DNA of 64,000 bases from Halalkalicoccus tibetensis. Its GTDB lineage: Archaea; Halobacteriota; Halobacteria; Halobacteriales; Halalkalicoccaceae. Under the pieces are notes generated by a model, which was not told the origin of the DNA, ran no database searches, and saw only the letters and a program-made list of their open reading frames with translations. Made by a program: the position numbers and the translations under genes. The DNA is taken from NCBI RefSeq assembly GCF_037996645.1, contig NZ_JBBMXV010000001.1, positions 438,168-502,167 of the forward strand, read 5' to 3'. Positions 4,010-33,912 of the stretch are shown piece after piece. Position 1 is the stretch's first letter, and each line of letters starts with the position of its first letter.

Positions 4010-4372
4010 ATGAGCACAGAGACCGCCGCCGGCACGGACCCGGAGATCCAGGTCTCCCCGACGGCCGCCGAGCAGGCGATCGACCTGCTGGAGGGCGAGG
4101 GGCTTGACACCGACGTCGCGGGCCTGCGCCTGTTCGTCCAACAGGGCGGCTGTGCGGGCCTCTCGTATGGCATGCGCTTCGACGACGAGCCCGAGGACGA
4201 CGACACCGTCTACGAGCACCACGACCTGCGGGTGTTCGTCGACCCCGCGAGCATGCGCTACATCGAGGGCAGCCAGCTCGACTTCGAGGGCGGCCTCCAG
4301 GGCGCGGGCTTCCACGTCGAGAACCCCAATGTCGTTTCCGAGTGTGGCTGCGGGGAGTCCTTTCGCACCTGA
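4010..4372 (+). CDS. HesB/IscA-family iron-sulfur cluster carrier
   Basis: A 120-residue A-type carrier that would bind a transient Fe-S cluster and pass it to apo-proteins in the cytoplasm. The three conserved cysteines of the family are present: one in QQGGCAGLSYGM (about residue 48) and the C-terminal CGC pair in ECGCGESF. The conserved strand IEGSQLDFEGGLQGAGFHVENPN also matches. The N-terminus MSTETAAGTDPEIQVSPTAAEQA is a short acidic extension before the domain. The stop codon (4370-4372) overlaps the first bases of the structured repeat element that follows. Confidence 0.93.
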   Translation: MSTETAAGTDPEIQVSPTAAEQAIDLLEGEGLDTDVAGLRLFVQQGGCAGLSYGMRFDDEPEDDDTVYEHHDLRVFVDPASMRYIEGSQLDFEGGLQGAGFHVENPNVVSECGCGESFRT

Positions 4373-4633
4373 AAGCCCTCGCTCGACGCTGGCGCGTCTC
4401 GCTCGCCCTTTTCATTTCCCTAAGAAAGGCCGCAGAGCGGTCTTTTCGGGCTGAGCGGCGACGACGTCGCCGCGAGGTCCGCGGGAACGCAATTCCCGCG
4501 AGATCCCAGAAATTTTCGATTTCTGAGGACCGCCAGGTGCCGCCGAGTCGCGGCGCGTGATCACGCGCCGCTTCCGAGGACGCCAGCCCTTCCCCGTTCG
4601 CGTGGCAGTCGCTCCGGAGCGACTGCCACGCGA
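4371..4633 (+). repeat. Structured hairpin element, copy 1
   Basis: This element shares long identical blocks with 33651-33912, in the same orientation, including a 48-bp identical stretch at 4441-4488 matching 33720-33767. Six hairpins are seen: 4425-4433/4437-4445 (one wobble, loop AGA), 4455-4462/4466-4473 (loop GAC), 4480-4488/4492-4500 (one mismatch, loop GCA), 4507-4514/4518-4525 (one wobble, loop TTC), 4550-4571 (22-nt perfect palindrome) and 4598-4633 (36-nt perfect palindrome). The last two sit between conserved spacers but share no arm sequence with their counterparts in copy 2. The minus-strand reading gives a peptide containing GPRGDVVAAQPEKTA in both copies, which I regard as non-coding. 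Confidence 0.85.
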
Positions 4634-4654
4634 GGCCACCGCCGTGGTAGGTAG

Positions 4655-33564: not shown

Positions 33565-33650
33565 AACGCCGTCGGCGTTTTTGGCATCGGGAGAATCGGA
33601 GATTCTCCAGCGAAACCTTGGCAGTTTCGCCTCGCCCGTTTCATGTCCAC
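33565..33650 (+). repeat. Extra hairpins preceding structured element copy 2
   Basis: Perfect inverted repeats at 33565-33570/33574-33579 (loop GTC), 33590-33597/33601-33608 (loop GGA) and 33610-33616/33624-33630 (7-nt loop). They are followed by CGTTTCATGTCCACGAAAG (33637-33655), which is close to CTTTTCATGTCCAAGAAAAG further on (33688-33707), so part of the element is internally repeated. Two of the three hairpins again have 3-nt loops. Confidence 0.65.
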
Positions 33651-33912
33651 GAAAGCCCTCAGCGCTCGCTGGCGCTCGCGCTTCGCCCTTTTCATGTCCA
33701 AGAAAAGACTGCTGCGCAGTCTTTTCGGGCTGAGCGGCGACGACGTCGCCGCGAGGTCCGCGGGAACTGCGTTCCCGCGAGATCCCAGAAATCGAAGATT
33801 TCTGAGGACCACCAGGCCGCATTGCGAGGGGTTCGGATCCGAACCCCTCGCTTAGGACGCCAGCCCTTCCCCGCCCCGCGAACGGGGTCGCGAATTGGCG
33901 ACCCCGTTCGCG
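33651..33912 (+). repeat. Structured hairpin element, copy 2
   Basis: Partner of 4371-4633 in the same orientation. Hairpins: 33703-33712/33716-33725 (loop TGC), 33734-33741/33745-33752 (loop GAC), 33759-33767/33771-33779 (loop TGC), 33786-33793/33797-33804 (loop GAA), 33824-33851 (28-nt perfect palindrome) and 33877-33891/33898-33912 (15-bp arms, loop GAATTG). Conserved spacers include TTTTCGGGCTGAGCGG, CGAGGTC, GAGATCCCAGAAAT, TGAGGACC and AGGACGCCAGCCCTTCCCCG. Where stems differ from copy 1, both arms have changed and pairing is kept. Confidence 0.85.

Follow-up and report, generated by a model that had tools for sequence, protein, structure and literature searches.

Bacteria are well known to harbour families of palindromic repeats. 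Enterobacterial BIMEs bind gyrase and IHF, and the REP/BIME sequences of enterobacteria are RAYT-associated, extragenic and interspersed palindromes clustered at gene ends and candidate DNA-level protein sites. The BOX elements of Streptococcus pneumoniae (boxA-boxB-boxC) are, from general knowledge, modular intergenic sequences with constant end modules and optional internal hairpins. The foot of the REP hairpin carries a GTAG or CGTC tag (PMC3733652). The intergenic termination sites of Haloferax volcanii contain a T-stretch plus TC motif, and one tested hairpin also terminated transcription there (PMC7237163).

The element studied here lies in Halalkalicoccus tibetensis (assembly GCF_037996645.1, contig NZ_JBBMXV010000001.1, forward strand, 438,168-502,167); the window is this whole stretch of 64,000 nt, and all positions refer to it. 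The element is a modular palindrome repeat, with near-perfect palindromes (A, optional B to E, F and G) strung on near-invariant linkers. The original prediction had described a two-copy element, but the two copies in the window are 2 of about 21 in this Halalkalicoccus genome. Like REP/BIME, it is extragenic, interspersed and palindromic, lies at gene ends and is a candidate DNA-level protein site; unlike REP/BIME, it is a longer mosaic of 3 to 8 unrelated palindromes whose stems change freely while the linkers stay fixed, and it was found here only in Halobacteriales, chance-level matches aside. It shares with BOX the modular intergenic layout, the constant end modules and the optional internal hairpins, whereas its stems are swapped between copies and it occurs in many haloarchaeal genera; a sequence relation to BOX is not known.

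A search for Y1_Tnp (PF01797, RAYT) genes gave no match in genomes G000, G001 and G002, nor in G005, and the domain was present in G003, G004 and G006. Mobilisation by RAYT/IS200-605 was therefore rejected, as Y1_Tnp is absent from three genomes with 8-16 copies. The feet of module A have the invariant sequences CCCTC/TCGCCC and lack the GTAG/CGTC tag. True REP membership thus fails on the RAYT gene and on the tag at module A. The element matched no Rfam family, which rules out a known RNA identity and agrees with the original view of it as neither an IS nor a known riboswitch. No account of the repeat family was found in the literature searched.

Architecture of the Two Copies

Copy 1 (4371-4642) consists of linker 1, module A, linker 2, hairpins B-C-D-E, linker 3 with CCAGG, module F, linker 4 with GCCAGCCCTTCCCCG, module G and a right-end linker. 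Copy 2 keeps this order and has an extra hairpin and a partial A unit ahead of it. Modules A, F and G are constant across copies, and B to E are optional. The features are as follows.

4371..4380, plus strand: copy 1 linker 1, GAAAGCCCTC, from the sequence; its GA is common to the TGA stop of the IscA-type gene
4381..4402, plus strand: copy 1 module A, a hairpin with a TGGC loop, arms of 9 nt and two T.C/C.T mismatches (70.9 bits with covariance model R1)
4403..4419, plus strand: copy 1 linker 2, TCGCCCTTTTCATTTCC, with a T tract; near-invariant in alignment A2
4420..4450, plus strand: copy 1 optional hairpin B, apparent hybrid of two B types with the joint in the loop
4453..4480, plus strand: copy 1 optional hairpin C (GCGGCGACGACGTCGCCGC)
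4481..4506, plus strand: copy 1 optional hairpin D (GCGGGAAC..TTCCCGCGAGATCC)
4507..4531, plus strand: copy 1 optional hairpin E (CAGAAAT..ATTTCTGAGGACC)
4532..4544, plus strand: copy 1 linker 3, GCCAGGTGCCGCC, conserved among copies
4550..4571, plus strand: copy 1 module F, perfect 22-nt palindrome; the same F stem occurs at L068 and L222
4572..4596, plus strand: copy 1 linker 4 (..GGACGCCAGCCCTTCCCCG), conserved among copies
4598..4633, plus strand: copy 1 module G, perfect 36-nt palindrome
4634..4642, plus strand: copy 1 right-end linker, GGCCACCGC, conserved among copies
33590..33608, plus strand: copy 2 extra upstream hairpin, GGAGAATC..GATTCTCC
33610..33650, plus strand: copy 2 tandem A unit, incomplete, with its stem at 33610-33630 and the linker CTCGCCCGTTTCATGTCCAC (R1 match 33612-33648, E 0.0015)
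33651..33699, plus strand: copy 2 module A with linkers 1 and 2 (R1, 69 bits)
33700..33810, plus strand: copy 2 optional hairpins B, C, D and E
33811..33873, plus strand: copy 2 module F, whose 28-nt palindrome spans 33824-33851, together with linkers 3 and 4; its stem is common only to L076 and L081, in the same genome
33877..33918, plus strand: copy 2 module G (18-nt arms, one mismatch) with right-end linker CCGGCC

The first two bases of copy 1 are the last two of the TGA stop codon (4370-4372) of the upstream gene, an IscA-type Fe-S assembly gene at 4010-4372. The element ends, GAAAGCCCTC and GGCCACCGC, are not mutual inverted repeats. Folding of both loci beats every dinucleotide shuffle (z -6.35 and -7.28). 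The A-A tandem in front of copy 2 is found also in L081.

The layout first read from the two loci was confirmed, with some corrections. Their alignment has near-identical linkers and about 49 identical columns (GTCTTTTCGGGCTGAGCGG...CGCGGGAAC), in line with the near-identical spacers and long identical block reported at the outset, and the palindromes of 22 nt (4550-4571) and 36 nt (4598-4633) in copy 1 and of 28 nt (33824-33851) in copy 2 are all present, as are paired arms in copy 2, of 18 nt and 94% complementary, at 33877-33912. The boundaries 4371-4633 and 33651-33912 needed correction: copy 1 runs to about 4642, and copy 2 begins earlier, with the hairpin and partial A unit at 33590-33650. 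At 4420-4450, hairpin B of copy 1, the wobble difference looks like a loop-joined hybrid of two hairpin types and not a wobble substitution.

Within the element copies at L073:1710 and L077:1684, a G run (or C run) stands beside N in the assembly, suggesting that sequencing stalls at the hairpins.

Distribution and Inheritance

About 21 loci were recovered in the Halalkalicoccus genome itself by DNA search; in this search, L072, within a gene, looks like a chance match. A pattern scan of named genomes recorded the element in Halalkalicoccus, Halapricum, Halococcus, Natrinema, Halobium, Haloprofundus, Halegenticoccus and Halorussus, and its few bacterial matches appear to be chance. A covariance-model search of haloarchaeal genomes, proposed with the original prediction, yielded many further copies: R1, the model of module A, was searched in archaeal genomes and matched 90 of 392 Halobacteriales genomes and 36 of 95 genera, with a single marginal match outside Halobacteriales (E 2e-4) in a phylum-wide sample. 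Copies gathered by such model-based searches lean to the consensus. The element was not found in viral, phage and plasmid collections, and an origin from phage, virus or plasmid was rejected on these zero matches.

Of the loci compared, the Halalkalicoccus family has 5 of 8 in common with f6 and 7 of 18 in common with f7; 0.1-0.2 would be expected on the assumption of about 2500 possible slots. The same genes often carry the element in different families. At the IscA locus, where copy 1 lies, the element is present in G000 to G003, decayed in G006 and absent from G004 and G005. Many loci are common to several species and to several families, and the comparison shows vertical inheritance with loss, copies decaying or vanishing at particular loci. 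As single copies decay or disappear between close species, most of them are dispensable.

A two-hairpin unit, H (ACGGGACG..CGTCCCGTTCG..CTCGC..), is inserted between TC dinucleotides in different modules (A or G) at L065, L292, L021 (the same locus as L078), L125 and L223. In addition, acyl-CoA dehydrogenase genes are followed by A-only elements with a direct duplication of 31-53 bp of the gene 3' end on their flanks (L104, L105, L088, L095, L219 near 895-942, and L353), in six genomes of several genera and with 84-98% identity in the aligned cases. Flanking duplications above the null were seen in 5 of 169 copies (31-53 bp), all at acyl-CoA dehydrogenase loci, and the remaining loci had no flanking duplication above the 99% null. 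These duplications, the sole trace of an insertion mechanism that was found, are possibly long target duplications or the result of an integration that restored the gene end.

Exchange of Palindromes Between Copies

At the L081 locus, the A stem and G module of G003 and G001 correspond to A' and G of G000, the ancestral parts retained there, and the middle of the G000 copy, running from its second A to F, matches copy 2 almost perfectly, with the ends of the tract in linkers. Only G000 has the F stem GCGAGGGGTTCGGATCCGAACCCCTCGC, which it carries at three unrelated loci, and the related loci of sister species have other stems. Hybrid hairpins with a breakpoint in the loop were found as well (L234/L097, GGAACGCA with CGAATTTC), and hairpin B of copy 1 looks like another. 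These cases show same-genome copies exchanging whole palindromes by gene conversion, with tract ends in linkers and occasionally in a loop, where hybrids arise. Because of the L081 tracts, the F stem private to G000 and the hybrid hairpins, we attribute the swapped stems of copies 1 and 2 to gene conversion. The replacement of whole stems with pairing kept, initially held to be stronger evidence for selection on structure than ordinary conservation, is not strong evidence on its own, since gene conversion copies intact palindromes between loci. Template-switch repair, too, could in part keep palindromes perfect, even in the absence of selection.

Covariation and Base Pairing

The stems contain strong covarying pairs, a check that the original prediction had suggested. 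Among 32 module A sequences, 9 of 9 pairs changed on both sides and 91% of cells pair; the covariation score was 1.007, against 0.264 when shuffled and at most 0.151 when slid. A wider set of 82 distinct rows scored 0.893 against 0.234, on an alignment fitted to the model.

An RNA helix read from one strand tolerates G.U and not A.C, while a DNA palindrome treats both alike. With a hairpin finder that seeds on Watson-Crick pairs and treats both strands alike, 421 distinct hairpins gave 4475 Watson-Crick, 26 G.T and 32 A.C pairs, whereas 30 tRNAs of the same genome, used as a control, gave 613, 26 and 2, respectively (Fisher p 1e-5; G.T share p 4e-11). Both mismatches were also rare in the Natrialbaceae elements (G.T 3 and A.C 1 of 482 pair cells), and the counts in ++ contexts were 7 G.T vs 6 A.C. 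The T tract is as well conserved on the promoter side as after stop codons (p 0.57), with similar stem pairing, and in promoter-side copies the neighbouring promoter is divergent, so that module A is not entered from any gene. The equal rarity of G.T and A.C and the equal conservation without an incoming gene point to a constraint on DNA and not on a structured RNA; and because Watson-Crick pairing is equal on both strands, the object kept is a DNA palindrome, be it a hairpin, a cruciform or a two-fold protein site. The conserved object thus appears to be a DNA structure, not an RNA. Among the three identities first offered, a REP-like repeat or a DNA-hairpin element fits these data, and a structured RNA fits poorly, G.T being as rare as A.C and promoter-side conservation equal. 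Preference for a bottom-strand hairpin through sheared G.A at the recurrent T.C/C.T mismatches was considered and dropped, as the strand energy difference is small.

Placement Relative to Genes

Genes were called with a codon-usage script trained on the 64-kb window. The left gene points at the element in 120 of 169 distinct copies, and in 107 of these 120 its stop codon lies -3 to +10 nt from GAAAG. In the other 49 the left gene points away, with the start codon 34-47 nt off in 36, which places the start of the element just before the presumed promoter, on its upstream side. Counted as independent loci, 32 of 33 are flush with the stop codon and 12 of 17 lie at the start-codon distance. The elements occupy the whole space that separates a stop codon from the promoter or stop codon that follows. 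Same-strand gene gaps in the window are mostly 27-68 bp, about one promoter, so the flush position is nearly the only free or harmless place, and targeted insertion at stop codons is not needed as an explanation. An orientation bias of 47 vs 16 copies shrinks to 14 vs 5 independent loci between same-strand genes (p 0.06) and was not retained. Convergent gene pairs are in modest excess (17 of 43 loci vs 11 of 61, p 0.02), measured against the background of a single 64-kb window.

Truncation of genes, or supply of their stop codon, by the element was rejected, as at IscA and fttA the protein end is the same with or without it. An exception is an asparaginase/beta-aspartyl-peptidase-type gene that reads into the element (..MQTKALG*, ..MQTKALATN*; L063, L213, L221, L239 and L244), so that in five Halalkalicoccus genomes the element encodes part of its C-terminus.

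Among the recurrent neighbours are fttA (aCPSF1), gyrB, glutamate dehydrogenase, gamma-glutamyltransferase, isoleucyl-tRNA synthetase, EF-1 beta and an RNA polymerase dimerisation subunit. The element stands behind gyrB at L075, L237, L216, L230, L225, L247 and L135. At L075 the following same-strand gene starts MSSDVPNPDIDA and is probably gyrA, which would place the element inside the gyrase gene pair.

The Single Copy Behind fttA

In Natrialbaceae (f8), all 16 of the 16 copies examined lie directly behind fttA (aCPSF1), a termination-factor gene (e.g., L128 and L139); the element at L067 is likewise behind fttA/aCPSF1, and many haloarchaeal fttA genes are without it. A whole-element search of five Natrialbaceae genomes found no second copy beyond near-threshold fragments, and the element is essentially single copy in this family. 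Across ten Natrialbaceae, identity was 0.83-0.93 in the linkers, 0.74-0.77 in the stems and 0.88 in the fttA coding end, and the DNA just downstream of the element fell to 0.61, near the shuffled 0.57. Neither transposition nor gene conversion could maintain the linkers of a single copy, so their conservation argues for function. At this one locus in one family, linker conservation is better evidence for function than the stem swaps.

Discussion

Considering all the above results, we think it reasonably probable that the element is an ancient, vertically inherited chromosomal repeat of Halobacteriales, a REP/BOX-like boundary element without RAYT, with a putative role as a protein-bound DNA site. 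In the model we propose, the element would mark the borders of transcription units as a boundary site at the DNA level; its linkers may be recognised by a haloarchaeal DNA-binding or DNA-topology protein, by analogy with BIMEs and gyrase or IHF. The palindromes are swapped by gene conversion between copies, ending in linkers. We hold more tentatively, as a somewhat doubtful possibility, that the family forms a lineage-wide DNA-structure code, in which a dedicated protein reads the linkers between sequence-free palindromes and the sole Natrialbaceae copy is a working part of the fttA locus.

Other explanations have to be weighed against the boundary-element reading. A non-autonomous mobile element (MITE-like or REP-like selfish DNA) that is the substrate of a recombinase acting in trans, with occasional re-insertion, gene conversion and palindrome repair, would account for the interspersed and modular arrangement, for unit H between TC dinucleotides of different modules, for the gene-end duplications around A-only elements in six genomes, and for the loss and decay of copies within the genus. 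We nevertheless regard it as unlikely, because G000, G001 and G002 have 8-16 copies and no Y1 transposase, flanking duplications that exceed the 99% null are confined to the acyl-CoA dehydrogenase group, no copy was found in the viral, phage and plasmid collections, the loci followed in Halalkalicoccus behave as old and vertical, and the element is conserved as a single copy in Natrialbaceae. That the copies have no function, as ancient degenerate repeats whose palindromes are perfect only through intrastrand template switching and gene conversion, is quite improbable. Strand-symmetric perfection and hybrid hairpins fit such a repair process, and copies are freely lost, yet palindrome repair could not keep the linkers, which are conserved in single copy while downstream DNA is at background, and loci are common to different families.

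A terminator or 3' UTR RNA element, in which hairpin A and the TTTTC tract end transcripts just past the stop codon, is a further alternative; the location after stop codons and the T tract of linker 2 are shared with haloarchaeal terminators. As in an intrinsic or FttA-type terminator, the tract lies behind a hairpin; 120 of the 169 copies follow a same-strand gene, and linker 2 (CCCTTTTCAT) is similar to the T-stretch plus TC motif found in Haloferax volcanii (PMC7237163); the flush stop codons, the excess of convergent gene pairs and the Natrialbaceae copy behind the termination-factor gene fttA point the same way. In contrast to those terminators, the element is a long palindrome chain with DNA-symmetric pairing and is equally conserved upstream of divergent promoters, so constraint is not confined to places where transcription enters. 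G.T does not exceed A.C even in ++ contexts, promoter-side copies keep T tract and stems equally well, both orientations occur between same-strand genes, and many haloarchaeal fttA genes do without the element. We therefore consider this explanation of the family distinctly unlikely; a terminator role at gene ends is possible, and would leave the promoter-side copies unexplained.

The family shows that strong covariation can be a DNA-level signal, which calls for caution when structured RNAs are proposed from covariation alone. Since the stems vary freely while linkers and pairing are kept, the family provides a natural test of selection, gene conversion and template-switch repair against one another. 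Furthermore, the conserved single-copy element behind fttA makes function testable at one locus.
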